Virus record (IMG/VR): IMGVR_UViG_3300047476_001680
Location: 24,751 to 88,750 of that record
Source of the DNA: a virus
Length of the DNA: 64,000 bases
Strand: one strand, 5' to 3'
The notes below the pieces were generated by a model. That model had not been told where the DNA came from, did no database searches, and saw only the letters and a list, made by a program, of their open reading frames with translations. This document shows positions 7,296-26,235 of the stretch, piece by piece. Every line of letters begins with the position of its first letter. Position 1 is the first letter of the stretch. The position numbers were made by a program, and so were the translations under genes.

Positions 7296-8774
7296 TTAAC
7301 TACACACTTTTACACCATACATTTTTTCGAACCTGTCTGCATCCAGGCGATCATTGACTATCGGCTCGCCACGTACATTCAAGCTAGTATTTAACAGCAT
7401 AGGACAGTCTGTGATCTCGTACCAACGTTCCAGTAAAGATCTGATGCCTGAATTGGAATCTTTACCGACTGTCTGCACTCTACTAGTACCGTCCACGTGT
7501 ACTATGGCAGGAAAGAGATCAGGTTGTTTACATTTTGCCACCACTTGCATATAGGGGCTTGATTTCCACCCACGCGGCATTTCAAAATAATTGTCCACAA
7601 GTTCCTCTAGAATTACTGGGGCGAAAGGTCTGAATTTTTGTCTACGCTTTATTTCGTTAACTCGATCCTTGATATCGGTACCTCTTGGATCTGCTAATAA
7701 ACTTCTATTGCCCAATGCCCTGGGTCCAAATTCTGCGCGACCGCTAGCAACGCCCACAATGCCATCAACCAGTAAACTATCAAGAAGGTCATCAACAGGG
7801 TATGGACCAGGTATATTATTCCCAATATAAGCGTTAGTCCAATTAAGCTGACTCCCATAAGCGAGGGCCGCAGCACCAAGGCTACTACCAGCATCGCCGG
7901 GATTAGGCATAATCCAAATATTCTCAAAGTATTCTCCTAAATTTCTATTGGCTAGACAGTTCAACGCCACCCCGCCACTGTAAACTAAATTATTACTATT
8001 GTTTAGATTTCGAGCTCTTGAAAAAACTTTTTTCAGAATTCTTTCTGTCACTTTTTGTGCACAAGCGGCTATTTCTTCTTTTTCAAAAAAAGCTAGTTCA
8101 TTTTCAGAGATTCCCAAATGTAAATTTAGTTTAAAAGAAGACTCGGCAATATCGTCAATGTATTTGCGTTCTAAAATACTATAATGGTAAGGACGAGCAT
8201 AGGCGCTCATCCCCATCAATATATATTCTTCTTCGTTGGGTTTTAGCCCCACTCTTTTGGTCATTGCACTATAAAATAAACCAATACTATGTGGATACTT
8301 TTTTGACCAAAGCTTTTCATATCGGGCACGGCCGCCTACGAGTGAAGCATTCCAGATTGATATAGTATCAAACTCCCCAATGGCATCAATGACCACAACA
8401 GTGGCGCGGTCGAATCCACTGGTTTGGAATCCCGCAGCGGCGTGACTGAGATGATGTCCGTAGGTTTTTATTTTAAAATTATTTAAATTGATGGGGAGTT
8501 GTTGCTGTAGTATTTGTCTAGTAGTAAACTTGTCCAGTTCTAGACCTTGTCCACTATATAAGCGACGTAATTGTTTAAGCCAAGGTCGTTCAAAATAAGC
8601 TAGGGTATTGATGGGAAATGCAAAAGCATCACTTATTAAAGACTTATGTAAGTTGGGGTCGTTTTTTATTTTGCTGTAACGTTCACTGTGCCCAGCAAAC
8701 AGTATGTCCCCTTGTGGACTAACGACACTAAGAGCAGCATCGTGATCACCCGCCGATATACCTAATATGTTCAT
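7296..8774 (-). CDS. NodU/CmcH/TobZ-type O-carbamoyltransferase
   Basis: Enzymes of this family transfer a carbamoyl group from carbamoyl phosphate, through carbamoyl-adenylate, to a hydroxyl of a sugar or antibiotic. The N-terminal MNILGISAGDHDAALSVV strand, HHLSHA with the conserved histidines (107, 108, 111), YSGGVALNC and the C-terminal GPRALGNRSLLADPR block are all family hallmarks. I take the ATG at 8774 rather than a TTG 15 bases upstream because it puts the first strand at the N-terminus. The start overlaps the preceding SGNH gene by 29 bases. With the sugar genes it suggests that the phage glycan or modified product carries O-carbamoyl groups. The 492-residue length is slightly short for the family but all blocks are present. 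Confidence 0.92.
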   Translation of the reverse strand: MNILGISAGDHDAALSVVSPQGDILFAGHSERYSKIKNDPNLHKSLISDAFAFPINTLAYFERPWLKQLRRLYSGQGLELDKFTTRQILQQQLPINLNNFKIKTYGHHLSHAAAGFQTSGFDRATVVVIDAIGEFDTISIWNASLVGGRARYEKLWSKKYPHSIGLFYSAMTKRVGLKPNEEEYILMGMSAYARPYHYSILERKYIDDIAESSFKLNLHLGISENELAFFEKEEIAACAQKVTERILKKVFSRARNLNNSNNLVYSGGVALNCLANRNLGEYFENIWIMPNPGDAGSSLGAAALAYGSQLNWTNAYIGNNIPGPYPVDDLLDSLLVDGIVGVASGRAEFGPRALGNRSLLADPRGTDIKDRVNEIKRRQKFRPFAPVILEELVDNYFEMPRGWKSSPYMQVVAKCKQPDLFPAIVHVDGTSRVQTVGKDSNSGIRSLLERWYEITDCPMLLNTSLNVRGEPIVNDRLDADRFEKMYGVKVCS

Positions 8775-9390
8775 AAACTTTATTAGCAATTAATTTATGC
8801 CCTTCGGGATTGGGATGACCCCGAGGCATTTTGGATAATTTGTTAGTCCACTCATCGGTACTATCAAACATTGTTTTATCTACAAACATATCCATATCAA
8901 TATTTTTTACAAGATCTTGATGTAAATGATTAAATTTCATATGCAATTTATTTGCATTATGACTGATAAACATCACGCAGGGTATTTGTTTTAACTTACA
9001 CATACCTTGTATTAAAATTATCTGTCTCAGCCAATTGGTATAATAGTACTCAGGCTGATCGTGCAATACAGTATACTTAATTAAATCTACTCTGTGCTGT
9101 AAATTGTGATCATTGACCCAGGGACTAATCCGTCCTCCCCAAACATCATATATTCCGTAGTTATCAGCTAATTCCATTCTTCCGGGATTGGTCCAGGAAA
9201 TTACTAATAATTTGCAATCAGACAAAACTACATCTAGGGCTCTTTTTACTATCCTGGTATTTCCGCAAGCTTCTTTACCAAGATTCGTGACTTCTCGTCC
9301 CAATAAATTTTGCAATACACTGGGCCAGGCGTCTGCCCTATCTGCCAGTTCAGCACCGTACGTAAAGCTACAACCCACTGCATATATCAT
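8746..9390 (-). CDS. SGNH/GDSL-like hydrolase (esterase or acyltransferase-like)
   Basis: The protein shows the block order of SGNH hydrolases: GCSFTYG with nucleophile Ser8, ACGNTRI with Asn44 in the oxyanion region, and a C-terminal HPNPEGHKLIA with His198 as the likely catalytic base. At 214 residues it is a single-domain enzyme. No signal peptide is present, so it should act in the cytoplasm, perhaps removing or adding an acyl group on a sugar or carrier. It sits between the small DPFIY protein (3-base gap) and the carbamoyltransferase (29-base overlap). The substrate is unknown. Confidence 0.8.
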   Translation of the reverse strand: MIYAVGCSFTYGAELADRADAWPSVLQNLLGREVTNLGKEACGNTRIVKRALDVVLSDCKLLVISWTNPGRMELADNYGIYDVWGGRISPWVNDHNLQHRVDLIKYTVLHDQPEYYYTNWLRQIILIQGMCKLKQIPCVMFISHNANKLHMKFNHLHQDLVKNIDMDMFVDKTMFDSTDEWTNKLSKMPRGHPNPEGHKLIANKVYEHIRYIGG

Positions 9391-9494: not shown

Positions 9495-10601
9495 TTATGT
9501 CCCCACTGAGTATTTACTACTGAAGTCGTAGCCGGGTTTCATCATTTCTATTTGCTGCATTTCATAATCTGAATCTGACCAGCAGTAATCATATTCTTGT
9601 CGCACGCCATCAACTTCAATTGCCTGAATGTTTAGATGATTTCCCAATATTTTCCATATTTGCTGTGCATCAGTGGTACCAAAGCTTCCCATCAAATCCA
9701 CTTGACCAATGGGTAAATACCCTAAACTTAATTTTGGATCATTAAGGGCTCTACCATTGCGGGTCAACCACTCCTTGAATTTATCCTGCTGTTCAGTATG
9801 CCAGTAGGCTGGTCCACCATAGACCACATCATTGCCCCATTCTACGTCGAACTCGCCACTGTAGAATTTTAGCTCAGTTATCGCCTCACAGACGGTGTCA
9901 GTTAAATCAGGAGCACCCTCATCTCTAAAAACTTCAAACAATGTTTTTCCAATCTGTGTCCAGTGCATATACACCCCACCTAGCACTCTATCGTAACCAT
10001 TGATGGAAAATAACTCCCTGTGCTCATCAGTTAATAGATATCTTGGCGCTTGTAGAAAGGTAGTTATCTGGCTGGGTCTAATCCAGAAAGGAACAGTTTG
10101 TAATTTTCTCTGACTTAAAACATAGCTTTCTAATTCGTGACAGATATTATTAAGTTGCCTTATGGCATACTTGGTCTCGTAGTTTGCCTTCTTATAATAA
10201 TCACTTAACTCCCAAACAGTACCTTGTAACACTTCAAAGTGATTGTGAAGCAAGTTAAAGACTTCGTGATTGGGACCTAGATCCTGATCATCGGTCCAGA
10301 GATCTTTTGTGTACTTTTCTGAAATTGTATAGGAATCTTTAAAAAAATTATTGATAGTATCAATGTGTTTGTTTAAATTCTCGGTAAGATATCCCAGATT
10401 CCTAGCAGTATAAGGGAATCCCATAAAGCAATAATTTTTTTCTAGGTGCTTATTATTATGTAATAGTTCTTTAAGTGCAAAGAGCCAATCCCGTGCAAGA
10501 ACGTTGTCTGCAGGAATTATATTGTATTCTATAGTGTCTTTTTTATTCCAGGGATTGGATAATATTACTTTAACTAATTGTTTTGTACCAGTCATAGACA
10601 T
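9495..10601 (-). CDS. Conserved-looking hypothetical protein (368 aa) next to the radical SAM array
   Basis: I cannot assign a function. The protein has no cysteine cluster and no nucleotide-binding motif. It is rich in Trp and Tyr, with a striking central segment: FWIRPSQITTFLQAPRYLL at about 171-189, then NGYDRVLGGVYMHWTQIGKTLFEVFRDEG at about 199-227. The C-terminal part (about 298-368) has an acidic, Tyr-rich tail. The start overlaps the adjacent radical SAM gene by 32 bases, so the two are co-translated. This gene closes the array on its downstream side. A substrate-carrier or partner role for the radical SAM enzymes is possible but only inferred from position. Confidence 0.8.
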   Translation of the reverse strand: MSMTGTKQLVKVILSNPWNKKDTIEYNIIPADNVLARDWLFALKELLHNNKHLEKNYCFMGFPYTARNLGYLTENLNKHIDTINNFFKDSYTISEKYTKDLWTDDQDLGPNHEVFNLLHNHFEVLQGTVWELSDYYKKANYETKYAIRQLNNICHELESYVLSQRKLQTVPFWIRPSQITTFLQAPRYLLTDEHRELFSINGYDRVLGGVYMHWTQIGKTLFEVFRDEGAPDLTDTVCEAITELKFYSGEFDVEWGNDVVYGGPAYWHTEQQDKFKEWLTRNGRALNDPKLSLGYLPIGQVDLMGSFGTTDAQQIWKILGNHLNIQAIEVDGVRQEYDYCWSDSDYEMQQIEMMKPGYDFSSKYSVGT

Positions 10602-11862
10602 CTTTTCTTGTTGATAATATTTCTTCCAGGCAAGTACTAGCCTTGCGTCTTGATTCCATTTTTAATATTTGGTTTTTACCAGATGCTAGGTGCTTGATAT
10701 AATCGTCACCATACTGTTCCTGATAGGTAGGTCTGTTTTTAAGTTGTACCAGTATATCTTTTAGTGACCCTGAAACTTGTGGTACAAGTTCATCTACCCA
10801 GGGGTCTAAAATTTCCCTGGGCAGAGCCAAGGGCGATAAGATTATATCTGGACTAAAACTAAAAATGACCTTGGATAGCACATCTACCCCTAGCGTTTGC
10901 GCGAGCTGCTGTATTTTGACAACTTCAAACATTCCGGGCAGAGTGAGCGTAAAGTCAATTCTGAGCTGACGTGAGTGAGTTCTGATCTCAAGTCCTTGAC
11001 GGAAGTTCTCAAGCCACTGGTCGTAGTCAAGACCTGTTCTAATGTATTCTCCAATTGCTCCTGTACCGTCGAGGCTCGCACATATCTGCCAATCACGAAG
11101 CCCAGTAAGAATGTCACGGTAAAGATTAATACCGCGATAATTAATTCTAGATAAATTTGTGTTGTATCTTGCATAAACACGATGGCCGTCTCCTAATTCT
11201 ATTATTCTTGCCATATAACGCCAATGTTGTTCATACATTAGTGGCTCACCACCCACCCAGTAGACCTCTTCCACTCGGTGCTCTTCTACAGCTCTTCTGA
11301 ATTCTTCTTCGATTTGTGTGTCCTGAAAACTTTCTATTTTAACTCTGTTTTCAGATTTCATCCAATTGTTTTTCGGATTGGACCAGTCAATATCATTAAA
11401 CTGTCGGCGTTCTGATTCCCAACTACTACTTAGCATATCGCCACACATACGACACTTAAAATTACATAGGTTACTGAACCTATAATCCCAACTAACAGGC
11501 TGCATAGTGGTGTAACCAGTGTTGTCTGTTTTAGCCATTGCCTCCGAATACTTATGCCCAAACAGTTGATTAAAATAACTACGGTAAACGTCGGTGTTAA
11601 GAAGTTTGTGGTTGCAGACTTCGCACTCAGGCAATTCTTGTCCTGACATCATACGACGTCTCACAGACTTCATATGTTCACTGTTCCAGTGTTCTTCTAG
11701 TGTTAGTGGACGATATTCTCCCGTGCCCGCATCAGTATCAATGTATTGTTGAAAGTTTTGCGCAGGTTCACGGCTAGCACAGCACATTCTTCGTTCAGTC
11801 TGCGGGCTTAGGTAGGTATGTACCCAGGGGGCCATACATAAAGTTTTGGGTTTATCTGACAT
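10570..11862 (-). CDS. Radical SAM enzyme with N-terminal twitch-like cysteine region (array member 1)
   Basis: A 4Fe-4S radical SAM enzyme. The cluster motif CxxxCxxC is Cys133, Cys137, Cys140 (NLCNFKCRMC), and the SAM-binding GGEP motif is at 204-207. Unusually, extra cysteines that could hold an auxiliary cluster lie before the core: Cys9 in CMAPW, Cys27-Cys28, and Cys80/Cys83 (CEVC). This architecture matches radical SAM proteins described as having an N-terminal twitch domain. Unlike most array members it lacks the C-terminal RG-DF-FP-L motif. The start overlaps the upstream member by 11 bases. The substrate is unknown; the family includes enzymes acting on peptides, sugars and other small molecules. 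Confidence 0.92.
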   Translation of the reverse strand: MSDKPKTLCMAPWVHTYLSPQTERRMCCASREPAQNFQQYIDTDAGTGEYRPLTLEEHWNSEHMKSVRRRMMSGQELPECEVCNHKLLNTDVYRSYFNQLFGHKYSEAMAKTDNTGYTTMQPVSWDYRFSNLCNFKCRMCGDMLSSSWESERRQFNDIDWSNPKNNWMKSENRVKIESFQDTQIEEEFRRAVEEHRVEEVYWVGGEPLMYEQHWRYMARIIELGDGHRVYARYNTNLSRINYRGINLYRDILTGLRDWQICASLDGTGAIGEYIRTGLDYDQWLENFRQGLEIRTHSRQLRIDFTLTLPGMFEVVKIQQLAQTLGVDVLSKVIFSFSPDIILSPLALPREILDPWVDELVPQVSGSLKDILVQLKNRPTYQEQYGDDYIKHLASGKNQILKMESRRKASTCLEEILSTRKDVYDWYKTIS

Positions 11863-12973
11863 AAGGGGTTAATTCAGGAAATACAGTTAACAAGTCTGTG
11901 CCACGATGTTGATCGTGGCGTTTGAAGAAACCTAAACTTTCCGCGAAACCACTTTCGTCTAGGTTAGTTGCATAACCCGTAGCGGCCTCAATTGACATTT
12001 TAGTAGTATTATTAACTGATAAGTTTTGTAGCATTTCGTATTTTTTATGCAAATGGTCACTTAACCCCAGTGGTAACCTCTGCGGATTCATAATTTCAGG
12101 ATCATCCACGGAGCATAGATACAGATTTTCTATATCATTCTGTAGTGCCCAGGTGATTAAATCAGGATATCTTAATAGGGATAGATTACTAAACGCAGTC
12201 CTAATATTAAATTGTTGATCGCAGTTTTTTAAGATATCAATACCCGTTAATATCTGTTCCCAACGAGAAGGGTAGCGTAAATAATCGTTGACTTCGTTGA
12301 CACCATCTATGCTAACATCTATATCAAAATCTTTAAAGTTTTCTTGTATCCGTGTCACTCGATCTGCTTTAATATTAGTGGCATTTGTAGTGAAATATAA
12401 TTTTATTTTTTTAGAAAGACCACGTTGAATTAATTCTTCTATAAATTGAAACGTTACTTTATCATAAAACGGCTCTCCACCCAGCAAACTAACTGTGGAA
12501 AAATTATACTGCTCAATAATCTCTAAAATTTTATCTCTTTTATCTTGAGATATATCAATGAGCCCAATGTCTTGGTTTTTGTTTAATACTTTTATTTCTA
12601 TTAGTTCTTTTATTCTGGGAAAGCTACTGTAACTACAGGGCAGACATTTTAAATTACAAGCATTGCTAGTAGAGATTAGAATTGTGCCATCATCAAAATC
12701 TCCCACTTCATAGTTTTTATCTTTTATGTTTTTACTAAATCTTAAACTGCTACCATATTTTTCTTCATTAGTTTTGCAGACTCTGCACTGATAGGGCAAT
12801 TCTCCATCTTCCAGGTGAGCTCTTTGTAGTTCCAAAATTTCAGGATGTGTGAAATAATTATATATATTAATGTCAGAGGAAGACGGCAAATAGGGAGGGC
12901 AGGGTTTAGATCTACCATACTCATCTATTATCATACCTTCATAAGGATTTACACAAAGTGGTTTCTTATTCAT
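11852..12973 (-). CDS. Radical SAM enzyme (array member 2)
   Basis: Cluster cysteines are Cys106, Cys110 and Cys113 (NACNLKCLPC), and the GGEPF motif follows at about residue 165. The N-terminal cysteine region is the most divergent of the array: Cys7, Cys25 in KPCPPY, then Cys63/Cys66 (CRVC), without the CxxPW signature. The C-terminus carries the shared motif HRGTDLLTVFPEL. At 373 residues it is the shortest member of the array. The start overlaps member 3 by 8 bases. Its sequence appears more A+T-rich than its neighbours, which might point to a separate origin, but I have not measured this. The reaction is unknown. Confidence 0.9.
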   Translation of the reverse strand: MNKKPLCVNPYEGMIIDEYGRSKPCPPYLPSSSDINIYNYFTHPEILELQRAHLEDGELPYQCRVCKTNEEKYGSSLRFSKNIKDKNYEVGDFDDGTILISTSNACNLKCLPCSYSSFPRIKELIEIKVLNKNQDIGLIDISQDKRDKILEIIEQYNFSTVSLLGGEPFYDKVTFQFIEELIQRGLSKKIKLYFTTNATNIKADRVTRIQENFKDFDIDVSIDGVNEVNDYLRYPSRWEQILTGIDILKNCDQQFNIRTAFSNLSLLRYPDLITWALQNDIENLYLCSVDDPEIMNPQRLPLGLSDHLHKKYEMLQNLSVNNTTKMSIEAATGYATNLDESGFAESLGFFKRHDQHRGTDLLTVFPELTPYVR

Positions 12974-14180
12974 ATCCCATTGCCTTTGCTATTTCATAGT
13001 GTGTGTCTTTGAAGTTTTGATTTCTATATTGATCTGTTTGCTTCATACGACGCAAAAATTCTCTGCCATCACTACCTGACCCGTTCTCTATAAAGCGTAT
13101 GACATTTTCTATTTCTCTTTGATAAAACTTACTAGACCAGAAAGTTGTTTTTAACTTGTTTAGGACTAACTCTTGAGCAGTGGGGGTCATTTGTTGTATA
13201 CTCATATGATCTGGACTATGTAACATATTAAAATAAACATTATCAAAACCCTTTTTGTCAGCCCAGTCCAGTAATTCATCTAGGTAATAGACATTTTGTA
13301 TGTTAACTGTAAAGCACAGCTGAGTGGTCAAATGAACACCGTCGTGTTGCTTGTAAGAACTGATAGCCATAATGTTATCATTCACCTCCTGCCATTTAGC
13401 ACCGTAACGCTCATATTCGAATCGTTTGCCGACATTGTCAATGCTAAATGCAATATCCACACGACCAAAATGTTGCCAGACCCAGGAATCCAAATTAGGG
13501 TCAACTGTACCATTGGTGTTATAATGAATATCAATATTTTTACTATAGCCCTGATCCACGGCAAACTTTAATAGATCAAAATGTTCTTGAATTAGGAAGG
13601 GCTCACCACCAGTGAATTCCATATACTTTATGTTAGGCAATAACTCTTTAAGATTATTCCAAAAATTTGTATCCTTGTCCCTGGGCCAGGCGCCCTGTTT
13701 GAGCCATTGGTAGGCTACGTGCTTCTCCTTGGGTACATTGGGTGTATATTTTAATTCTTCATCAGCCCACTTACTGCTGCTCCAGCTTCCGCAGATTCTG
13801 CATTTTAGGTTACAGATATTACCCAACTTTAAGTCAACAAACCATAATTGATCTGGTACTAAGTTTTCCCAATCAACATTTTTGTAAAGCTCTTTCAGTC
13901 GTATTCTGCTATTAATTCTTTTGCTAGTCCTACCCGCGGCCTCTTCCTCCCAGCATAACTGGCAAGTACTGGGCTTTTCTCCCTGTAGCATTTGTTTTCT
14001 CAAGCCTTGCATATATGAACTCTTATATGCAGTCACTAAATCAGAAGTGCGCAAATTTATTTTTTGTCCATTATCATCCGTAATTTCTTCCCGGGCCAGA
14101 CAACAAGGCCTCACTGTGCCCATAGGACTAGTCTCTATACTGACCCAGGGCAACATACAAATTGTTTCAGGTAGTTTCAT
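12966..14180 (-). CDS. Radical SAM enzyme with N-terminal twitch-like region (array member 3)
   Basis: The N-terminus has CMLPW (Cys8), RPCCLA (Cys26-Cys27), and GEKPSTCQLCW (Cys73, Cys76), the auxiliary-cluster pattern. The radical SAM motif is Cys123, Cys127, Cys130 (NICNLKCRIC), and FTGGEPF follows near 200. The TIM-barrel part contains the typical YNTNGT strand. The last 30 residues differ from the RG-DF-FP-L motif of other members. The ATG overlaps the stop of member 4 by 14 bases. It is closest by eye to members 1 and 4, which share the CMxPW start. Confidence 0.92.
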   Translation of the reverse strand: MKLPETICMLPWVSIETSPMGTVRPCCLAREEITDDNGQKINLRTSDLVTAYKSSYMQGLRKQMLQGEKPSTCQLCWEEEAAGRTSKRINSRIRLKELYKNVDWENLVPDQLWFVDLKLGNICNLKCRICGSWSSSKWADEELKYTPNVPKEKHVAYQWLKQGAWPRDKDTNFWNNLKELLPNIKYMEFTGGEPFLIQEHFDLLKFAVDQGYSKNIDIHYNTNGTVDPNLDSWVWQHFGRVDIAFSIDNVGKRFEYERYGAKWQEVNDNIMAISSYKQHDGVHLTTQLCFTVNIQNVYYLDELLDWADKKGFDNVYFNMLHSPDHMSIQQMTPTAQELVLNKLKTTFWSSKFYQREIENVIRFIENGSGSDGREFLRRMKQTDQYRNQNFKDTHYEIAKAMGYE

Positions 14181-15513
14181 ATTTTTTTAACTCTTGTAAT
14201 TCAGGAAAAACTTCAAAAAAGTTTTCACCACGTGTGGTATCCAATAATTTTACTTCATTTAGGAATCTAGGAAGTAAATGCTCGGCATTGTTTCCGTTGA
14301 TAAAGTTTAAAAGTCCACGATATCCAGAAGTAGCACGTTTCAATGGGTCTATGGGCTCAAGCCAGGCCAAATGTTCGTTATATTTTTGAGTCAATTGAAC
14401 TTTGATATCCGCTGGCAATATGTCTGCACGGTACCAATCAGGACCCTGGCAGACGTTTATGTTAAAATCTTTGGCATTGATTAGTCCCAGATCAGTCCAT
14501 TCTCTATGAAAGTCAGGAACGTGAAAGGCATTCATAGAACTCACAGTGGCCGCAATATAAAAATCCACGTGCGGTACCTCTTGTATCATTCTCTGTCTAT
14601 TATCCACAGTTTGATGCCATTTGGTACCTTTGCGCATAAGCTCTGCCCTTGCGCCGCTGGCATCTAGGCTAGCACCCACACTGACGTTTTTAAAATGTTT
14701 CCAAAATTCAAATACGTGCTTGTCCTTGAAGGCTAACTCACTAAAGTTAGTATTGTACTGTATTCTAATATCTGTTTTTCCGTGCTCCAATAACTTCTCC
14801 AGCATAAAATAATGCTCTTTCATTATCAGTGGTTCACCTCCAGCAAAATACACTTGTTCAAGATAGGGAATATGCGGCAACATTTGATCTAACATCGACT
14901 GTTCATCACCAGCAGCATATTCTATCCGCATCATTTCTCTACCCAATACATCTGGTTTTTTACCGTACTGTTTGACGTGTTCGTTATACCAGTTACTGCT
15001 AAAGATTGGCCCACAGGTTCTGCAACTAAAATTGCATAGATTACTAAATCGTACGTCCCAGTATCTAATCTTGAAATCTTGAACTGTGCCGTCGAGAGCT
15101 GTCTTTTCTACATCGTCAATATGGTGCCCATAGTTTCTATTACTGTCATATCTCATACTGAACAGTCCATTTTTTTCCTGTTCATAACATTTTTTGCACT
15201 GAACGCTGGGTTTTCCCTCCAGCATATTTTTTCGCATTTTGCGTAGAGGTCGCTGATTCCAGACTTCCTGCATAGAATTTTTTCTAAGATCTCCTATAGG
15301 ATGCCAGTAATCAGCAAGGCAGCAGGGGTAGGCGCGACCGTCAGGAAAGGCGTGCATATGAACCCAGGGTAACATACAAAAAGTGTCGCTTTCGGTCAGC
15401 AAATGTTTTTGCTTATCAGTGAGCTTTTCTTCGCTTACAAAGAAAGGTTTGCGATCGTTATACTTGTAACCTTTATTATAAAAACCCTTTACTCCTTGAT
15501 CTTCCTTATCCAT
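14167..15513 (-). CDS. Radical SAM enzyme with N-terminal twitch-like region (array member 4)
   Basis: The protein has CMLPWV, YPCCLADYWHP and a CKKC pair before the core, then the radical SAM cysteines (160, 164, 167 from this start; NLCNFSCRTC) and FAGGEPL. The C-terminus has TRGENFFEVFPEL, the shared array motif. Two in-frame ATGs are available. I choose the second, which forms a TAATG junction with the upstream stop and has GGGG six bases before it; the alternative adds six residues. An extra segment of about 40 residues precedes the CMLPW block, unlike members 1 and 3. The substrate is unknown. Confidence 0.92.
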   Translation of the reverse strand: MDKEDQGVKGFYNKGYKYNDRKPFFVSEEKLTDKQKHLLTESDTFCMLPWVHMHAFPDGRAYPCCLADYWHPIGDLRKNSMQEVWNQRPLRKMRKNMLEGKPSVQCKKCYEQEKNGLFSMRYDSNRNYGHHIDDVEKTALDGTVQDFKIRYWDVRFSNLCNFSCRTCGPIFSSNWYNEHVKQYGKKPDVLGREMMRIEYAAGDEQSMLDQMLPHIPYLEQVYFAGGEPLIMKEHYFMLEKLLEHGKTDIRIQYNTNFSELAFKDKHVFEFWKHFKNVSVGASLDASGARAELMRKGTKWHQTVDNRQRMIQEVPHVDFYIAATVSSMNAFHVPDFHREWTDLGLINAKDFNINVCQGPDWYRADILPADIKVQLTQKYNEHLAWLEPIDPLKRATSGYRGLLNFINGNNAEHLLPRFLNEVKLLDTTRGENFFEVFPELQELKKYETT

Positions 15514-16919
15514 TATATGCCCCTGTACCATTCTGCCAAGTCGGGAAACGTTTTTTCAAAATCTCTACCCCTTCTTTTATCAAACTGCACAAAGAAATTT
15601 TTAAAATCTTGCGCAAGATCTGATTTAATATATGTGACGTTTTGTTTGTCGTAATCTTGTTCTTCAAAAGTAATACCCTTGTGTGGAACTTCCACAGTCT
15701 TTAAGTATTCTGCCAAACGTTTTATTTGTACAATATCATCAGCATTAAAGTATTTTGAATTATCTGGATTGTCTATAAATTCCATTATATCATCACTGTA
15801 CTTTACTCTTTTTTCCATTGGTAAAATAAAAATATTTTGAAAAGCTGGGAATCTCACAAAATTAATATATGAACTTAATTTTCTTTTACTGCGTGTTTCT
15901 TGTCTAAAATTTTTGGACCATATTAAGTATTCTAAATATCCATCTATGCTCACAGCACTTATTGTGCTTTGTAGATGAATTTTATCCACTACTTTTTCTT
16001 TTATAAGTCTACGTAGATTTTTTTCAAATTGCACACTGTCTAGACCATCTCTCACATACTCTGCTTTGGTGCCAATATTTTCTATACTCACCAACATAAA
16101 TATTTCTTTTAATCTTGGTTTAGTTCGTTTTAAATGATCTATTAACTTATCCATAACATCGTCATCGTAGGATAAATTTGTAATAATACCTATTTTTTCT
16201 AAACTAGTATTTTCTTGTTCTGCACACCAATCCAGGAATCGCCATAGATAACCACCCATCGTGGGCTCGCCGCCAGTGAACAATATAAGTTTGAGGTGTT
16301 TATGGAGTTCCGTTTCCCACCACTTAAAGAAAGCTTCTATATAGGGATTATTTTCACGATCATTGTAGTCATACTTTACAGTATGATCCTGTGCACTGGC
16401 ATATTGATCGCTACCATTGGTAGTTAAATTAGTATATGGGCCGTTATTTCTCACATCCTTGGCCCAACTGCTGCTGATATAGGGACTACAATAGGTGCAG
16501 GCCAGCTGACAGGTTCTATCGAAGGCTATTTCTAGTTCTCGTAATTGTACGTCTGAATCAGGGTCAGCATCAAAAGCTAATTTTAACTCCTCGGGACTGT
16601 AGTTCATACTATATCGCATCCTATCGGATATAGCTTCTGGATTTGCTTCTTCAATGACCCAACAAAACTGACAATTGATGGGCTTCTCACCGCGAAGCAT
16701 CTGCGCTCTTTCAACCTTTTTTAATTTGGTATTATGAATAGCTGAGGGATTGGTTTTAATTTCTTCAGGGTCAATACTGTGTCCTGGATTGTGAAAGCAG
16801 CTCTGTGTGCCTCCCATCCAGAGTTGTATGGTAGCATAATACCACTTGTGCCCACAAAAGCTAGCTGACTTGGTGTCCAGATGTTTCTTTTTAAAAAATT
16901 TTATTTTCTGTTCATTCAT
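15513..16919 (-). CDS. Radical SAM enzyme, SC-HP/HNT subfamily (array member 5)
   Basis: Members 5, 6 and 7 form a subfamily. Shared N-terminal landmarks are a Cys followed by KW (Cys22), SCFHNP, a NPSAIHNT block, GEKPINCQFCW (Cys83, Cys86) and then the radical SAM motif, here Cys137, Cys141, Cys144 (RTCQLACTYC). FTGGEPTM follows, about 100 residues after the cluster motif. The C-terminal end is FDKRRGRDFEKTFPDL, the array motif in full. The length is 468 residues. The gene overlaps member 6 by four bases (ATGA) and shares one base with member 4. The extended N-terminus with histidines beside cysteines could offer mixed Cys/His metal ligation. Confidence 0.92.
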   Translation of the reverse strand: MNEQKIKFFKKKHLDTKSASFCGHKWYYATIQLWMGGTQSCFHNPGHSIDPEEIKTNPSAIHNTKLKKVERAQMLRGEKPINCQFCWVIEEANPEAISDRMRYSMNYSPEELKLAFDADPDSDVQLRELEIAFDRTCQLACTYCSPYISSSWAKDVRNNGPYTNLTTNGSDQYASAQDHTVKYDYNDRENNPYIEAFFKWWETELHKHLKLILFTGGEPTMGGYLWRFLDWCAEQENTSLEKIGIITNLSYDDDVMDKLIDHLKRTKPRLKEIFMLVSIENIGTKAEYVRDGLDSVQFEKNLRRLIKEKVVDKIHLQSTISAVSIDGYLEYLIWSKNFRQETRSKRKLSSYINFVRFPAFQNIFILPMEKRVKYSDDIMEFIDNPDNSKYFNADDIVQIKRLAEYLKTVEVPHKGITFEEQDYDKQNVTYIKSDLAQDFKNFFVQFDKRRGRDFEKTFPDLAEWYRGI

Positions 16920-18271
16920 AGAGTGTTATACCATTCCACCAAGGAGGGGAAACTAACCGCAAAGTCTTTTCCTCTACGTTGATCATACTGGCTATAAAAG
17001 TTTTTAAAGTCCATACGCAATTTTGAAAGTTCAAATGCTTCACTATGTGGAGTTTCCACTCGATCAAGATAATTTATCAATCTTTTCACGTGGGCGATTT
17101 CGTGCTCGTGCAGTCCTACGTGATTTTGCCAGATATCCAACCAATGCTGGAGCCTGCCTTTATATTTTGACTTGATGTCATCAGGCAATACTAGGGCACT
17201 CTGGAAGCTGGGAAACCTTAGTATATTTAAGGTAAAGTTTATACTGTCTTTACCAAAGTTACTTTTAAATTCCAACAATTTAGTTAAAAAATCTGGCAAT
17301 GAATCCAGGCACAATGCATTGATAGTGCACATAACGTGCACCCCCTTGATTGTTTTATTGCGCACAAGTAATTCTAGATTTTTAAGCCATTGGTTGTAGT
17401 CCAACCCATCTCTAATGTACTCCGCTTGTGGGCCCACACTTTCATTGCTGGTGTAAATTTCTAAATGTGGTATTCCCTCGACCTTGTCTAAAAATTCTTT
17501 CAGTCTTCCTTCATCGAATCCCAGATTGCTGTTTATGGCCAGCTTGGTTGAGCTCTTGTTGTCGTTACTAGTATACCAGTCTAATAGTTTCCAGGTGTAA
17601 CCAGACATAAGAGGCTCACCGCCGGTAATTCTTAACTCCTTTAGGCTCTTGTGTAAATCTGATTCCCACCAGTTAAAAAACGCAGTAATATAAGGGTTTT
17701 CTTCGCCGAACTTATAAAGTTGACTACTATCGTGAGTATGAGTAAAGTGGTTCCTACCATCACTAACCAAATTGACATAGGGTCCATTATTTTTAATGTC
17801 TCTAACCCAGGTGCTACTAAAGGCAGGATTACAATAAGAACAAGCAAATTGACAAGTGCGGTCAAAAGATATTTCAAGAGTCTGTAGGTTAACGTCACTA
17901 TCCGACGGTAAATTAAATGCATATTCGAGATCCTTATCATCGTAAATAACTGTTTTGTAAACACGATCACTGACATTATTAACATCAGCGTCTTCAATCT
18001 TCCAGCAATACTCGCAGCCACGAGGTCTTTCTCCCTGTTGCATCTGTTTACGTTCTGCTTTTTTATGACTAGTATTATGCAGAGCACGTGGATTACTCAT
18101 TACTTCTTGTTCAGACACGTGATGTGGTAAAGGATGATGGCAGCTAGTAGTCTGGCCACTGCCCAACCAAATGGTGGCATTATACCACTTGGCCGCGCAC
18201 CAACTTTCACTCTTGATATCTATTACACGCTTTTTATAGTCTAAATAGGTTTCGTTATTTTGTTTTGGCAT
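16916..18271 (-). CDS. Radical SAM enzyme, SC-HP/HNT subfamily (array member 6)
   Basis: This is a close paralogue of members 5 and 7. Landmarks are Cys25-Ala-Ala-Lys-Trp, SCHHPLPHH at 43-51, NPRALHNT at 60-67, GERPRGCEYCW (Cys86, Cys89), radical SAM Cys140/144/147 (RTCQFACSYC), ITGGEPLM, and the C-terminal YDQRRGKDFAVSFPSL. Members 5 and 6 share the phrase DSDVxLxxLEIxFDRTCQ just before the cluster, which argues for a duplication between them after splitting from member 7. The gene overlaps member 7 by 17 bases and member 5 by four. The function is unknown. Confidence 0.92.
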   Translation of the reverse strand: MPKQNNETYLDYKKRVIDIKSESWCAAKWYNATIWLGSGQTTSCHHPLPHHVSEQEVMSNPRALHNTSHKKAERKQMQQGERPRGCEYCWKIEDADVNNVSDRVYKTVIYDDKDLEYAFNLPSDSDVNLQTLEISFDRTCQFACSYCNPAFSSTWVRDIKNNGPYVNLVSDGRNHFTHTHDSSQLYKFGEENPYITAFFNWWESDLHKSLKELRITGGEPLMSGYTWKLLDWYTSNDNKSSTKLAINSNLGFDEGRLKEFLDKVEGIPHLEIYTSNESVGPQAEYIRDGLDYNQWLKNLELLVRNKTIKGVHVMCTINALCLDSLPDFLTKLLEFKSNFGKDSINFTLNILRFPSFQSALVLPDDIKSKYKGRLQHWLDIWQNHVGLHEHEIAHVKRLINYLDRVETPHSEAFELSKLRMDFKNFYSQYDQRRGKDFAVSFPSLVEWYNTL

Positions 18272-19643
18272 AATATTCGCATTGGCGCCAAAATTCAGAC
18301 ATTTCTGGAAATGATTTTAGAAAGTCTGTCCCCCGGCGGCGATCGTGTTCGTTAAAAAACTTATAAAAGTCAGCTTGTTGCATTGTAACATAATCTGGAT
18401 CAAGATTGCGACCTTCATTCATCCAATCTATCACACGCTGTAATCTCTGTAACTCATAATCTTTGAATCCTTTAAATGGCCTAGTTGGATCTTCCAGATT
18501 CTTCATTATGAACACCCAGCTTTCCTCTAGAAGATCAGAATACACTTCTGGTAAAATTTGTAGACTCTGATGTGTGGGCTGCCTAAGTATGGGCGTATCA
18601 AACCAAACTCTCTGATAGGTTTTGCTATATATCTCTCTAAGTCCCATAATGGCATTAAACAACTCACGGACACCAGTTACATTTAGAGCATTCATTGTGA
18701 TAATAAATGTAAGGCTGCTTCTATTGGGAACTTCATTTAAAAATCTATTTACATTATCCCAGAGCCTGTTAAAATCCAACCCATTTCTACCATATTCAGC
18801 TTTTCCCCCCACACAGTCCAAACTCACATACTGCATAAAGTGCTGTAGGTGTTTGGGTTCGTTGGTAGTTAATCTCTTTACATAGTCCAGATATTTTTCA
18901 AACAACTCTGGTTCTACACTGAAGTTACTGGTCACATCAAGATGTAGATCAGGACTGGGATTTTCCAGAACGTAATCAAATACTCTATAGGTATTGCGAT
19001 CCATCAAGGGCTCGCCACCAGTCATCCTAAAGTGTTTTAGTTTCGGGTAGAGTTCAGGCCACCAGGACCAAAAGGCATCAACATATGGATTATCTTCACG
19101 AGCGGGGATAGGTTTTCTCCGACCCAGGAAGTAACTAGGCTCGTTATGAAGATTACTAGTGGGATATGCTCCGTGCCTAGCAATTTCGTCAGCCCAACTG
19201 CTACTAAACTGAGGGCTACAATAACTACACTTAAGGTTACAAGCGTGATTAAAATTGACTTCCACATAACTTGGTATTTCATTTTCTTCTCCGGTACTAT
19301 TTACAATACGATCAAAATGTTCCGCGGCCCAGGGTTCGCCGCTGCGATAGTGCCTGTCACTTAAATTACCTAGGTCTTCTTGTGTCCAGCAATAGCTGCA
19401 CTCTTGTGGGCGTTCGTTGCGTAGCATAATTCGACGCTGTTCTTTTTTGTGCGGTGTATTATGTAATGCACTGGGATTGTCTTTTAGCAAGGATGCGTCT
19501 ATTTCGTGTAGCGGGGGATGATAACAACTATTTGTTAATCCTGTGGGCAAGTGAAGACTAACCTGTTGCCATTTAGCTAGGCACAAACCTTCCCCCAGTT
19601 TGGATTTCATTTGTTCTGCTGCTGAAAGAAAATCGCTTGACAT
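18255..19643 (-). CDS. Radical SAM enzyme, SC-HP/HNT subfamily (array member 7)
   Basis: This is the first-transcribed radical SAM gene of the array. It has Cys-x-x-Lys-Trp (CLAKW), SCYHPPLHE, NPSALHNT, RPQECSYCW, radical SAM cysteines 135, 139 and 142 (HACNLKCSYC), MTGGEPLM and the C-terminal HDRRRGTDFLKSFPEM. I choose the ATG at 19643 over a TTG six bases upstream because GAGG lies eight bases before it and it forms a TAATG junction with the glycosyltransferase-like gene. Direct coupling of a sugar-transferase-like gene to a radical SAM gene supports a shared pathway. Confidence 0.92.
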   Translation of the reverse strand: MSSDFLSAAEQMKSKLGEGLCLAKWQQVSLHLPTGLTNSCYHPPLHEIDASLLKDNPSALHNTPHKKEQRRIMLRNERPQECSYCWTQEDLGNLSDRHYRSGEPWAAEHFDRIVNSTGEENEIPSYVEVNFNHACNLKCSYCSPQFSSSWADEIARHGAYPTSNLHNEPSYFLGRRKPIPAREDNPYVDAFWSWWPELYPKLKHFRMTGGEPLMDRNTYRVFDYVLENPSPDLHLDVTSNFSVEPELFEKYLDYVKRLTTNEPKHLQHFMQYVSLDCVGGKAEYGRNGLDFNRLWDNVNRFLNEVPNRSSLTFIITMNALNVTGVRELFNAIMGLREIYSKTYQRVWFDTPILRQPTHQSLQILPEVYSDLLEESWVFIMKNLEDPTRPFKGFKDYELQRLQRVIDWMNEGRNLDPDYVTMQQADFYKFFNEHDRRRGTDFLKSFPEMSEFWRQCEYYAKTK

Positions 19644-20578
19644 TACCAACCCTCAATTCTACGGATGACGTCTAGTTCAGTCATCATTACTTCAGTGTTT
19701 CTCTGCCCAGTACTATAATGATGCTTGAAAAATTTACTTTGTTCAGGAGACAAAGTTGTTATAGGTAACCCCAGTCGATTTTTTAGAGAATCTTCAATGT
19801 TTTGACAGCCCACTAGTGGATCTTCCTTGCCAAAACTATCCCAGAGTTTTTCTAACATATCAAAATCTTGAACGTGATGGTGATCCCATTTTTCCAGCAT
19901 AATCATATATGTGCCCAGTCTGGCTCCATACATTGCCCAGTAACCATTTTCTACATCTGCTCCCACACTCTGCCAGATGCATAGATGATCGTAATTACGA
20001 TTGTTAACCTTTTGTTCGAACTCTTGTAGTGTCGGTTTGTGTCCGCGATCTAGACACATCTTCACTCCTTCACGAAACCCAGCACGCCAGGCCTGTTTGG
20101 CACTGCCGTTGGGATAGGTGGTACTATAACAATTATGCATCGCAAAATATTTTGGATCAAAACAAAACTCCACCGATGTTTCTTCTCTGCCGTCGGAGTT
20201 TTCGTGAGTACGCATATTGTTGACAAATTCGCGGCTCCAGACACTGAGACCACCATTACCATACCTTAAACCATTGATGACATTTCTGGCTTTCCAACGG
20301 AAGGCTGCACCCTGGTATTCTGGTTTTAATGTCAACTGTAGGTTAAAAAATTCTGGATCAGGTAGGTTATCACCATCAATTAATACAAACCATTCAGTGT
20401 CACTGGTGTTGGCTGCGGCCTTGTGAGCAGCATCAGACCCCTTGATGCCATCAACCCTCTTGGCCCAGGGAATCATATTTTGTATCTTAACCCAAAAGTC
20501 TTCCTTTTTGGGTTCATCATAGGTTAAGAAAATTACATCTAGGTCAGCAATATCAAGTGTGTCGATGTGTGTAGTCAT
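19643..20578 (-). CDS. GT-A (family 2-like) glycosyltransferase
   Basis: The N-terminal half looks like a GT-A fold: strand DVIFLTYDEP at 14-23, then TEWFVLIDGDN at 61-71 with the acidic DGD motif (68-70) expected to bind metal and nucleotide sugar. NGLRYGNGGLSVW and KQAWRAGFREGVKM follow, and both recur in the C-terminal module of the 794-residue repeat protein. I use the ATG at 20578; a TTG 27 bases upstream is possible. The start overlaps the preceding gene by 26 bases. It is the only copy of this module in the window with an intact acidic motif, so it is the likely active enzyme of the set. Confidence 0.75.
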   Translation of the reverse strand: MTTHIDTLDIADLDVIFLTYDEPKKEDFWVKIQNMIPWAKRVDGIKGSDAAHKAAANTSDTEWFVLIDGDNLPDPEFFNLQLTLKPEYQGAAFRWKARNVINGLRYGNGGLSVWSREFVNNMRTHENSDGREETSVEFCFDPKYFAMHNCYSTTYPNGSAKQAWRAGFREGVKMCLDRGHKPTLQEFEQKVNNRNYDHLCIWQSVGADVENGYWAMYGARLGTYMIMLEKWDHHHVQDFDMLEKLWDSFGKEDPLVGCQNIEDSLKNRLGLPITTLSPEQSKFFKHHYSTGQRNTEVMMTELDVIRRIEGW

Positions 20579-20933
20579 AATAGTCAATGTGTTCAAAATC
20601 TTCAAGGTCGTTTTTTTCTAGTACCAGGGCTGCGTGTCCTGGCACTGTGGGAATACCGGTACTACTTTTTTTAAGTTTTCTTTTTAGCTCAACACTGTGC
20701 ACAATGAGTTCAGCTACTCTATCCTTAATGTGATACTGGTGATAATTATGATATATTTCTTGTTCAACAACTATATAAGGTAATTCTGTCCCAGGATGGT
20801 TTATCATACTGCACATTTTGATATCACCATTTTCATTATAGTACCATCGATATTCAGGAATCTCAGGTCTATAATCCAGGTGCTCCTGGTAGGCTGCCAT
20901 CAAGGCTTTAAATAATTCCTGCTCTGCGTTCAT
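20553..20933 (-). CDS. Hypothetical protein (126 aa)
   Basis: This small acidic, Tyr-rich protein contains EYRWYYNENGDI (about 26-37) and YIVVEQEIYHNYHQYHIKD (about 53-71). I recall similar 'ExRxYY...DG' proteins as a common small family in marine T4-like phages, but no function is known to me. It has no cysteine motif and no membrane segment. It overlaps both neighbours by about 26 bases each, so it is firmly part of the train. Confidence 0.75.
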   Translation of the reverse strand: MNAEQELFKALMAAYQEHLDYRPEIPEYRWYYNENGDIKMCSMINHPGTELPYIVVEQEIYHNYHQYHIKDRVAELIVHSVELKRKLKKSSTGIPTVPGHAALVLEKNDLEDFEHIDYYDYTHRHT

Positions 20934-21765
20934 AGTATTCGATTAATTCCTGTGTGGCATACTCTTTTTCGTAATAGTGAACTGGCCAATATTGATTTAC
21001 ACCATTAATACGTATCATATCCCCGTCACGTTCACTCATAACTGCATCATACCAGGGTATGCCCACATTGTAGCCATTTATTTCTGGTTTCATATGTGCA
21101 AACTTTATAAAATCCAAACTGGGCAGTGTGACATTTTCCACCCCAATCATCTGTGCTGTCACCGCATATAATACATCAGTACTAGGCACATCTTCGCGAC
21201 AATTCTTTAACACTTTATTTTTTAATTCGTCCCAGTGTTCTCGAATTTGATTGGCTGTTCTAAAAAAATTAGCGCCAGTATGAGAAAATCTGAAATACAT
21301 CAGCCCAGTGTATACATCAGGTAATGAATTACTGTCAAAAAATCTTCTGTATTCTCTACTAGTTGCTGGAATTCCCAGACTGGTTAGACAACCCAGAGGC
21401 ATTAATACATCGCGAAGTCTAAAACTTGGTAACCAATGATCTATGCTGCTAGTAAAAAGAAGATCACTTTCTAACTTGATAGTTTCTTTAAAAGGCGTTA
21501 GGCTAAATGTCTGGCACTCGTTGGCCAGTCTCCATTTAGAGTCGTCAGAATTATAATTATTTTCGATCTCAATGACGTAATCAAAAACTCTCCGATGCCG
21601 GTCAGTCAGTAACTCTGCTGTTTTTTTATCAACCACCACCGCATATTTGTTTTGCTTTTGTGTGCATTTAACATTAAGAGCCTGCAGATAAGCTAGACTC
21701 AAATAGTCTACCTCTGATGTATTTTCGGCTATGGTTAAAAAACCCAGTTGTTCTTTATGCTGCAT
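20908..21765 (-). CDS. Glycosyltransferase-like protein, family 8-type fold, degenerate DxD
   Basis: The N-terminus resembles its upstream neighbour: GFLTIAENTSEVDYLSLAYLQA against GVVMFASNTEQIDYLKIASRCA. This suggests two paralogous GT-A proteins in tandem. The usual DxD position holds ESD (99-101, KLESDLLF), which could still bind metal but is weaker. The C-terminal part carries a conserved-looking INGYNVGIPWYDAV segment and HYYEKEYATQELIEYYE. It overlaps the upstream gene by 11 bases and the downstream gene by 26. It may be a transferase or a non-catalytic partner of the upstream enzyme. Confidence 0.65.
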   Translation of the reverse strand: MQHKEQLGFLTIAENTSEVDYLSLAYLQALNVKCTQKQNKYAVVVDKKTAELLTDRHRRVFDYVIEIENNYNSDDSKWRLANECQTFSLTPFKETIKLESDLLFTSSIDHWLPSFRLRDVLMPLGCLTSLGIPATSREYRRFFDSNSLPDVYTGLMYFRFSHTGANFFRTANQIREHWDELKNKVLKNCREDVPSTDVLYAVTAQMIGVENVTLPSLDFIKFAHMKPEINGYNVGIPWYDAVMSERDGDMIRINGVNQYWPVHYYEKEYATQELIEYYERRAGII

Positions 21766-22567
21766 TACTAATATATTGTTCTAAAAAATTATTAAAATTG
21801 TCTGATAACAAATACATCTTGTCCATAACGTGTATGTCCTGTATGGGAGATATCAATGCTCTGTCCCTTGTTCGTATTACTATTGAGTTATTGAGACTTT
21901 CCATTGCCTTGATTTCATTATCAAAAGTAAACATCGACCAGGGTATTCGTTTATTTTTCTCTAGTTTATACCCGTTGATAACTAGATCCGCGATGGCGAA
22001 GGCGTAATCATTTCTATAACTCTGATTAAAAATATTAAACATTGCACAGTAGTAACTATATCTATTTTCTATCCTCCTTACCAAATCAAATAAACTTTGG
22101 CTTACTGGTGTTCTATTAAAAACAATCACGGTGGCCCAGATATAGTTTATACTGCCGCGAGCCATTGGTTGTGTCAGTGTTTCGTACCCATTGTAACTAT
22201 CTCCCATAATTTTATAGTCGAAATCAGCATCCATCAATTTGGCAAGATTATCTGTGAGAGGCAAATAATCAGCGTCAATTAAAATAGTGGTGTCGTAAGG
22301 ACTGAGCTCGTAGGCACTGTATCTGCTTTTATTCCTCCAAGCCCAGGCCTGGTTATTATAATATTTGGTATTAGAATTATCTAGTGCATCAATGTTTATA
22401 ATCTTATCAAATAATGAATTTTGGTAATCTTGAGAATCAGTGATCAGAGTTACAGGAAGTGCTAGTGTATGCTGCACTAGTTGTGCACATCTCGATGCTA
22501 TTTTTAGGTAATCTATTTGCTCAGTATTACTGGCAAACATAACCACTCCTTTAGACTTTTCTGACAC
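21755..22567 (-). CDS. GT-A glycosyltransferase-like protein with DAD motif
   Basis: The first strand GVVMFASN and the TTILIDADYLPLT block with DAD at 98-100 fit a GT-A nucleotide-diphospho-sugar transferase of the family 8 type. The later ARGSINYIWATVIVFNRT segment also fits. The start is uncertain. The GTG at 22567 keeps the complete first strand. An ATG at 22540 has AAAGGAG five bases before it, the better ribosome site, but would trim that strand. The gene overlaps the upstream small protein by 17 bases. The protein lacks membrane segments. Donor and acceptor are unknown. Confidence 0.7.
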   Translation of the reverse strand: MSEKSKGVVMFASNTEQIDYLKIASRCAQLVQHTLALPVTLITDSQDYQNSLFDKIINIDALDNSNTKYYNNQAWAWRNKSRYSAYELSPYDTTILIDADYLPLTDNLAKLMDADFDYKIMGDSYNGYETLTQPMARGSINYIWATVIVFNRTPVSQSLFDLVRRIENRYSYYCAMFNIFNQSYRNDYAFAIADLVINGYKLEKNKRIPWSMFTFDNEIKAMESLNNSIVIRTRDRALISPIQDIHVMDKMYLLSDNFNNFLEQYISNAA

Positions 22568-22865
22568 GAGTTATTTCCTGATATTGCTGATGCCAAGCGT
22601 TCATTTGTACTTGATAGTGTTGCCGGGCTAGGTCGTAGAATTCAGTTCGATTTACCTTTACTGGATTTTCATAAACGTCTGCCAGAAATAATTCCTCATC
22701 AGGCCAGGTTGCCACAAAGGATAATAATTCGGGAGTTGCCAAGAACATCCCGCCATTATAAGTAAAATGCAGATTGGTTTTTATTGCTTCCCTGATTAAC
22801 TTTTTGTTTATCTGGATATCAGTTGCTTGTCGCACTGATTCCGCTAGCTGACTTATTGAATTCAT
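22551..22865 (-). CDS. Conserved-looking small protein (104 aa), first gene of the train
   Basis: This is the first gene after the hairpin that ends the structural operon. The sequence has a distinctive middle, IKTNLHFTYNGGMFLATPELLSFV, and a C-terminal HYQVQMNAWHQQYQEITRVRKV. I recall very similar proteins in many marine T4-like phages, where they are annotated as hypothetical. There is no known function, no cysteines and no membrane segment. It overlaps the next gene by 17 bases. A clear promoter in front of it is not visible, so the train may depend on read-through from the tail genes. Confidence 0.8.
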   Translation of the reverse strand: MNSISQLAESVRQATDIQINKKLIREAIKTNLHFTYNGGMFLATPELLSFVATWPDEELFLADVYENPVKVNRTEFYDLARQHYQVQMNAWHQQYQEITRVRKV

Positions 22866-26085: not shown

Positions 26086-26088
26086 CAC

Positions 26089-26235
26089 TTAGTTTCCAGT
26101 TTCAACAATGGTTTGCCCCGATTCGGGGTCAGTTATCTTTAGAAATCCACGAACATAGATGCCGCTAAGGTCATCTGGTTTTGTCTCGGGTGTGGGTTTT
26201 TCCTGATCTCTTTCAGTATTTTCATTATTTATCAT
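26089..26235 (-). CDS. 48-aa partial paralogue of the adjacent structural protein
   Basis: A short frame between the 530-residue and 210-residue genes starts with ATGA over the upstream stop and ends three bases before the next ATG. The first 20 residues are charged and Pro-rich (ERDQEKPTPETKPDD). The rest, YVRGFLKITDPESGQTIVETGN, aligns with GHIKIFDPVTAEVFVDKSN of the next gene. It looks like a duplicated N-terminal module expressed on its own. The function is unknown; it could compete for or cap the same binding site in the virion. Confidence 0.7.
   Translation of the reverse strand: MINNENTERDQEKPTPETKPDDLSGIYVRGFLKITDPESGQTIVETGN

Follow-up and report, generated by a model that had tools for sequence, protein, structure and literature searches.

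Radical SAM enzymes in the putative host-recognition region of a T4-like phage: a conserved five-enzyme set and its possible role in a glycan-type decoration

Introduction

Why would a phage encode seven radical S-adenosylmethionine (SAM) enzymes side by side? Such enzymes are costly and oxygen-sensitive, and need iron, sulphur and electrons; a phage carrying 5-17 of their genes, sometimes with its own supply of SAM, ferredoxin or Fe-S clusters, must gain something important. The question is raised by the window analysed here, a stretch of 64,000 bases taken from a virus record 88,750 bases long (IMG/VR IMGVR_UViG_3300047476_001680, positions 24751-88750), in which seven consecutive overlapping open reading frames (ORFs) of this type form an array on the minus strand (10570-19649). 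At roughly even odds (a probability of about 0.5), we propose that the array represents a multi-step radical SAM pathway within the host-recognition region of a T4-like phage, building or altering a glycan-type decoration of the tail fibres or of the surface of the infected cell.

Seven N-terminal-twitch enzymes in one array

The ORFs were named A to G in the order of transcription. They were scored against NF033640 (N_Twi_rSAM of NCBIfam), the model of the N-terminal-twitch (N-Twi) radical SAM family, with a curated cutoff of 170 bits. "Core" marks the five members of the conserved set described below.

18255..19649, minus strand: A, N-Twi radical SAM enzyme, core (327.5 bits)
16916..18271, minus strand: B, N-Twi radical SAM enzyme, core (300.5 bits)
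15513..16919, minus strand: C, N-Twi radical SAM enzyme, B-lineage duplicate, non-core (256 bits)
14167..15531, minus strand: D, N-Twi radical SAM enzyme, core (406 bits)
12966..14180, minus strand: E, N-Twi radical SAM enzyme, core (346.1 bits)
11852..12973, minus strand: F, divergent N-Twi radical SAM enzyme, lineage-specific (201.5 bits)
10570..11862, minus strand: G, N-Twi radical SAM enzyme, core, median identity 72% (290.9 bits)

An earlier sequence-only reading had described seven adjacent minus-strand radical SAM genes and suggested a hidden Markov model search of each protein against radical SAM subfamilies. The description was borne out, as all seven proteins carry CxxxCxxC and GGEP and exceed the cutoff (201.5-406 bits) with nearly the full N-terminal-twitch model covered. 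The first gene, A, can start from ATG at 19643 or TTG at 19649. As to the overlaps, for which 1-17 bases had been given, the minimum of a single base is obtained with the internal ATG of D, but the range becomes 4-19 bases when the longest starts are taken. B and C are 41.5% identical to each other, and for most core pairs the identity amounts to only about 20-30%. When compared with the nearest relative, A, B, F and G are under purifying selection, the ratio of nonsynonymous to synonymous substitutions (dN/dS) being 0.02-0.09; in C, D and E, dS had reached saturation.

An N-terminal set of cysteines, C...C(C)...CxxC, is present in all seven proteins. Among 67-76 sequences for each core group (A, B, D, E and G), all the N-terminal and core Fe-S cysteines are 100% conserved, with four or five invariant N-terminal cysteines per group. 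The fully conserved residues are C23, C42, C84 and C87 together with C137, C141 and C144 in A (73 sequences), all seven Fe-S cysteines in B (76 sequences), the Fe-S cysteines and C289 in E (73 sequences), and the Fe-S cysteines and C261 in G (67 sequences). Since this conservation extends over so many sequences, the pattern is far beyond chance, and the auxiliary Fe-S site of twitch type that had been expected from the cysteines in front of the core is strongly indicated. In a Pfam search, the SPASM domain (PF13186) matched the N-terminal part of D with 45.7 bits and that of G with 23.0 bits, both above the cutoff; the match in E (19.0 bits) was below it, and A, B, C and F gave none. Using an AlphaFold 2 (AF2) model of D with a predicted local distance difference test (pLDDT) score of 91.7, Foldseek returned radical SAM enzymes as the nearest solved structures, several of them of the SPASM/twitch type, at TM-scores of only about 0.3-0.45, a result that is consistent with an auxiliary domain lying, in the predicted fold, at an unusual position. 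Membership in the sulfatase-maturase group was rejected on model scores.

A conserved set of five enzymes with fixed partners

The genes that surround the array and recur with it in other viruses are as follows.

26232-27824, 25453-26088, 23915-25414 and 22942-23892, minus strand: tail-fibre/adhesin-like genes before the cassette, by sequence and position
22551..22865, minus strand: small conserved cassette protein, found in 62 loci, without Pfam match
21755..22567, minus strand: second GT8-like glycosyltransferase (hhalign to the w20908 family, 99% probability, E 8.6e-18)
20908..21765, minus strand: w20908, GT8-like glycosyltransferase (profile matches glycogenin-1 in PDB, E 0.0019)
20553..20933, minus strand: w20553, small YRxYYxxxG-type cassette protein, recurring between w20908 and w19643
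19643..20605, minus strand: w19643, GT2-like glycosyltransferase just upstream of A, with weak GT2 Pfam matches
9495..10601, minus strand: w9495, conserved partner that follows G in freshwater phages (orthologues in 73 loci)
8746..9390, minus strand: SGNH/GDSL-fold protein of the O-acyl esterase or transferase type (PF13472 22.8 bits, below the cutoff)
7296..8789, minus strand: NodU-type O-carbamoyltransferase (PF16861 173 bits, PF02543 122 bits)
5949..7058, minus strand: w5949, GT-B-like protein by eye, with homologues recurring between A/B and E/G

A scan of IMG/VR identified at least 597 stretches that encode relatives of B. In 65 non-redundant loci of the freshwater type, A, B, D, E and G are arranged in one order, followed by w9495 and the carbamoyltransferase gene where the contig is long enough, and usually preceded by the tail-fibre-like genes, a 104-aa protein, the two GT8-like genes and w19643. 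Marine T4-like contigs, which first came to notice as phage-like sequences within marine metagenome-assembled genomes (MAGs), show the order A-B-D-G-E, in which G and E are swapped, behind the same upstream genes; they mostly keep the SGNH and carbamoyltransferase genes and have no recognisable w9495, which is absent, for instance, from the marine version L108. Four contigs (L106-L109) that resemble T4-like phage DNA had been assigned to MAGs with the names Betaproteobacteria, Verrucomicrobia, Pelagibacter and Rickettsiales. The number of N-Twi matches per record is 8-17 in large viral records (>200 kb) and 5-12 in the shorter marine ones.

The link to the upstream transferase was examined with w19643 as query, giving 82 distinct loci after removal of 26 duplicates, nine of which end too early to tell. 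An N-Twi gene lies directly downstream in 72 of the 73 testable loci, 63 having A and nine having other N-Twi genes only, with a single locus having none; in reduced versions, A is the sole N-Twi gene directly after the transferases. This co-occurrence suggests that w19643 belongs to one functional unit with the N-Twi genes. Altogether, these observations show a conserved set in which A, B, D, E and G, five enzymes distinct from one another, are accompanied by a GT2-like transferase, two GT8-like transferases, SGNH-fold proteins and a carbamoyltransferase.

Recurrence in other phages with the same partners had been set beforehand as the test of the array, and it was clearly passed by the 65 loci, the marine contigs and the w19643 link; nor is the arrangement an artefact of assembly, given its position inside an 88,750-base record and its recurrence on other contigs. 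What has to be narrowed is the view of the array as a unit of seven, because all seven genes are present but only five form the conserved set, C and F being lineage-specific. In IMG/VR, C has one close orthologue at 79% identity and a few at 43-46%. An orthologue of F was found only in the nearest relative (L009, 76%), and distant single-gene relatives at 23-26% occur in cultured Vibrio phages; as no relative of F was detected in the viral scan, F was treated as accessory.

Among annotated phages, no megablast match was obtained with window positions 7000-30000, and no protein match with B, w9495, w19643 or two other cassette proteins, while D and E match only Vibrio phages K566 and K567 and one short marine record (24-27% identical). 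Vibrio phage K566 (L102) has four N-Twi-related genes in one cluster, two of them above the NF033640 cutoff, and the cluster also contains a GT8-like homologue of lipopolysaccharide galactosyltransferase. A single N-Twi gene is carried by phage nt-1, which infects Vibrio natriegens.

The GT2 Pfam matches were obtained, weakly, with seven of 19 w19643 orthologues (best E 0.011), and the DGDN motif is invariant. The SGNH-like genes recur in cassettes, the carbamoyltransferase gene is kept in both freshwater and marine versions, and the tail-fibre-like genes are syntenic in both. For w5949 there was no Pfam or usable PDB match, and PDB profile searches with three other partner families, w5949 included, gave nothing usable. 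With the AF2 model of w9495 (pLDDT 89), the PDB gave a few scattered weak matches, none of them below E 0.7. Invariant residues H119, E123, H155, E156 and E158 of this protein are located on two predicted helices and could form a metal site. In phage loci, the genes between or after the radical SAM genes are mostly those for SGNH-fold proteins, GT-B-like proteins (by eye or by homology to window genes) and epimerases, with a GHMP kinase and a cytidylyltransferase as single cases among the radical SAM genes of phage relatives. An amidinotransferase-like family (by eye, without Pfam match) was found in 17 phage loci and in one cluster of Bacteriovoracia, which also contains N-Twi genes and a carbamoyltransferase gene.

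Relatives in Bacteriovoracia

In a tree of 84 phage and bacterial proteins, the phage sequences of A, D, E and G each form a well-supported clade with marine and freshwater members together, and those of B likewise form one clade with C inside. The nearest cellular kin of each core clade belong to Bacteriovoracia, those of A to Bacteriovoracaceae, the placement of B among them being weakly supported. As shown by the tree, the five paralogues are separate clades, older than the marine-freshwater split, so that different steps are favoured over copies of one reaction; a recent tandem duplication of the core was rejected by the same tree.

Relatives of all five core enzymes were found in one chromosomal cluster of the Bacteriovoracaceae genome UBA6144 (L110/L146). 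The cluster lies between the Obg/L27 and Lgt genes (by eye; RsfS was identified by Pfam), and hence not on a phage contig. A B-type match is present in 46 of 129 Bacteriovoracia genomes. Elsewhere in this class, relatives of G and B occur with an ABC-2 exporter pair, PqqD, DegT and carbamoyltransferase. The sugar-related neighbours in phages (SGNH, GT-B-like, epimerases, kinase and cytidylyltransferase), taken together with the ABC-2 export, DegT and carbamoyltransferase genes in Bacteriovoracia, favour a sugar-containing product.

Several bacterial variants were seen on the way. Two Bacteriovoracia proteins of 1495 and 1611 aa (L178:6141-10628 and L179:6115-10950) have an A-type N-Twi domain and about 1000 further residues. 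A nucleotidyltransferase-like protein (RNS...SDxD by eye) is apparently fused to G in L184:3667-6006, and such a protein is also encoded beside A/B relatives in L110, L180, L183, L186, L187 and L189.

Support genes for radical SAM chemistry

In or at the edge of the cassette, some relatives carry genes for SAM synthetase, for ferredoxin with flavin reductase, or for FeS_assembly_P. Of the 38 records searched, 13 encode A-type Fe-S carriers (among them 10 of the 13 records of >200 kb) and three encode FeS_assembly_P. A PNP_UDP_1 nucleosidase, a family found in four of the 38 records, is encoded between E and G in relatives and could, from its family, remove 5'-deoxyadenosine. As expected for enzymes that are predicted to cleave SAM, these support genes may be taken as an indirect sign of working enzymes.

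Other genes of the phage

The portal gene product (60120-61826) is 50-53% identical to portal proteins of T4-like phages, and that of 40349-43786 is 34-38% identical to T4-like baseplate wedge proteins, the matches of both including jumbo T4-like phages. By these portal and baseplate genes, the phage is assigned to the T4-like group. Four further genes with Pfam matches lie on the plus strand.

822-1952, plus strand: NAD-dependent sugar epimerase (PF01370 146 bits)
1934-3082, plus strand: DegT aminotransferase (PF01041 248.5 bits)
53575-54501, plus strand: H, radical SAM gene outside the array (PF04055 29.3 bits; cutoff 29.5)
54498-55511, plus strand: I, radical SAM gene outside the array (PF04055 31.5 bits; cutoff 29.5)

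H and I are homologous to each other, carry C-terminal cysteine motifs and score far below the N_Twi cutoff; they adjoin genes resembling gp46/gp47. On the minus strand, a dCMP-deaminase-like gene (5434-5949) is a neighbour of the glycan genes, a position that it also has in relatives. A 794-aa protein (3057-5441, minus strand) has about four repeats of ~60 aa (DFSWHPD...GTQWQ..GGPIY) and a C-terminal part that is like w19643 by eye, and recurs downstream of many cassettes. A 4155-aa ORF (27875-40342, minus strand) probably encodes a giant baseplate or fibre protein.

Discussion

In the pathway proposed here, the steps of which are modelled on the radical SAM superfamily, each enzyme would cleave SAM reductively at the CxxxCxxC cluster and abstract hydrogen from the bound substrate, and the second Fe-S site held by the N-terminal cysteines would pass electrons or hold the substrate. 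The radical step would differ from enzyme to enzyme; dehydrogenation, epimerisation and formation of a C-C or C-S bond are examples. Because the five enzymes are separate in ancestry, conserved jointly and shared in position, they may act in series on one sugar-containing intermediate, which the transferases would assemble and the SGNH and carbamoyltransferase enzymes would finish with acyl and carbamoyl changes, the product being placed most likely on the tail fibres of the virion or on the surface of the infected cell. The GT8-like transferases and the carbamoyltransferase, as well as the sugar epimerase and the DegT aminotransferase of the window, speak for this reading. Action in series or in parallel on related substrates had been suggested by the sequence-only reading for all seven; the old, distinct lineages of the five favour different steps, C being a B-lineage duplicate and F a divergent extra. 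It is a tentative view, held with somewhat less confidence than the pathway itself, that the phages possess an assembly line not described before, five different radical SAM enzymes working one after another towards a modified glycan or glycoprotein decoration. Such a line would be widespread among T4-like phages of fresh water and the sea, its gene set being shared with Bacteriovoracia.

Several observations weigh against the proposed pathway. The GT2 assignment of w19643 is weak; the neighbours of the five-gene array in bacteria (L110) are Obg, ribosomal protein L27 and RsfS genes and not glycan genes; the PqqD-like genes adjoining B/G relatives point to peptide substrates; the support genes other than the A-type carriers are present in few loci each; and the 88-kb record of the window, itself a fragment, has none of the three support families searched (A-type carriers, FeS_assembly_P and PNP_UDP_1).

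The alternatives differ in substrate, in destination or in chemistry. SPASM/twitch enzymes commonly act on peptides, and radical SAM/SPASM maturases modify ribosomal peptides, so that the enzymes might instead modify residues of a phage polypeptide, most likely a tail-fibre or small cassette protein, which the transferases would then glycosylate. In line with this, a 95-aa PqqD protein (46 bits) and a Peptidase_S74 chaperone protein are encoded in the L184 cluster with the G and B relatives, a 100-aa PqqD-like protein (21.1 bits, just under the cutoff) directly upstream of B in L150, and a LanC-like protein about 4 kb from B in L185, and tail-fibre genes precede the phage cassette. On the phage side, however, no precursor-like ORF fits within the overlapping array, the cassettes are interspersed with sugar-pathway genes and not with proteases or leader exporters, and PqqD-like genes are confined to some of the bacterial relatives, no such match being found among the phage cassette proteins tested. 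The arrangement typical of ribosomally synthesized and post-translationally modified peptide (RiPP) maturation, a precursor peptide and RRE/PqqD beside the maturase, was likewise not seen among these proteins. We regard a polypeptide substrate as the main rival, less probable than a glycan-type one. As for destination, the product might be put on the host surface polysaccharide during infection, thereby blocking superinfection, instead of decorating the virion. The same was proposed for pelagimyophage glycosyltransferases (PMC7029224), and the bacterial relatives sit with ABC-2 type export genes; yet the cassette itself sits with late virion genes, and phage cassettes have no recognisable gene for export, for a flippase or for a ligase, which leaves this a minority possibility. 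It concerns where the product goes and not how it is made, and thus overlaps with the proposed pathway.

Two further explanations carry far less weight. A tandem series of copies of a single enzyme, all catalysing the same reaction and retained for the sake of dosage or variety, would agree with C being a duplicate of the B lineage (41.5%) and with the 5-17 family copies per phage contig, but is very improbable given that most core pairs retain so little identity and that the core enzymes fall into five separate clades and are conserved together. Nucleotide or antiviral-type chemistry, by viperin-like chain terminators or by modification of DNA or RNA, is harder still to credit: viperin is among the structural neighbours of the D model and the viperin model (NF038283) gives weak matches of 13-23 bits with window genes, but these are far below its cutoff of 180 bits, and no polymerase- or nucleotide-linked partner gene is conserved in the cassette core. 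Membership in the viperin family was rejected, with at most 23 bits against 180.

Identification of the product would reveal a new way in which phages alter their own or the host surface, and a large enzyme family that is still uncharacterised would gain a function. Parts of the question are testable now, owing to the distant homologues in cultured Vibrio phages.

Comparison with known systems

Excerpts of earlier reports describe many radical SAM genes in T4-like environmental viruses, with 12 in one TARA genome (PMC5332604), radical SAM cassettes in tail-fibre/GT8 host-recognition clusters of pelagimyophages (PMC7029224), and Fe-S assembly genes in the same genomes as phage radical SAM genes (PMC5332604, PMC7029224). 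In the Aeromonas giant phage 332-Vera, a cluster of structural genes includes eight radical SAM genes, which was called highly unusual (PMC12390700); this phage is assigned to Chimallinviridae (phiKZ-type), unlike the T4-like phage of the window, and the likeness is by description alone. The open-access literature, a scope that leaves most subscription papers and bioRxiv preprints outside, yielded no account of a conserved set of these five enzymes or of what it does.

The characterised enzymes anSME, CteB, BlsE and MoaA, which are among the closest structures to the D model, share with the array proteins the radical SAM core and extra Fe-S cysteines of SPASM/twitch type, but the auxiliary cysteine domain is C-terminal in characterised SPASM/twitch enzymes and N-terminal in all seven array proteins. 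The Bacteriovoracia arrays (UBA6144, L110/L146) resemble those of phages in that all five core relatives are clustered, and differ in having no tail-fibre, GT8-like or w9495 genes and in the flanking Obg, L27 and RsfS genes. The NF033640 model, whose cutoff the array proteins exceed, defines a sequence subfamily without attached chemistry, whereas in these phages members of the family make up a conserved set of several genes, the partners of which are constant. As far as the excerpts of PMC5332604 and PMC7029224 go, they give counts and cassettes and do not mention the core set, its order and partners, the twitch architecture or the bacterial counterpart. The abundance and cassettes of radical SAM genes in T4-like aquatic phages had thus been noted before, and the conserved five-enzyme set, with its order and partners, may be new.

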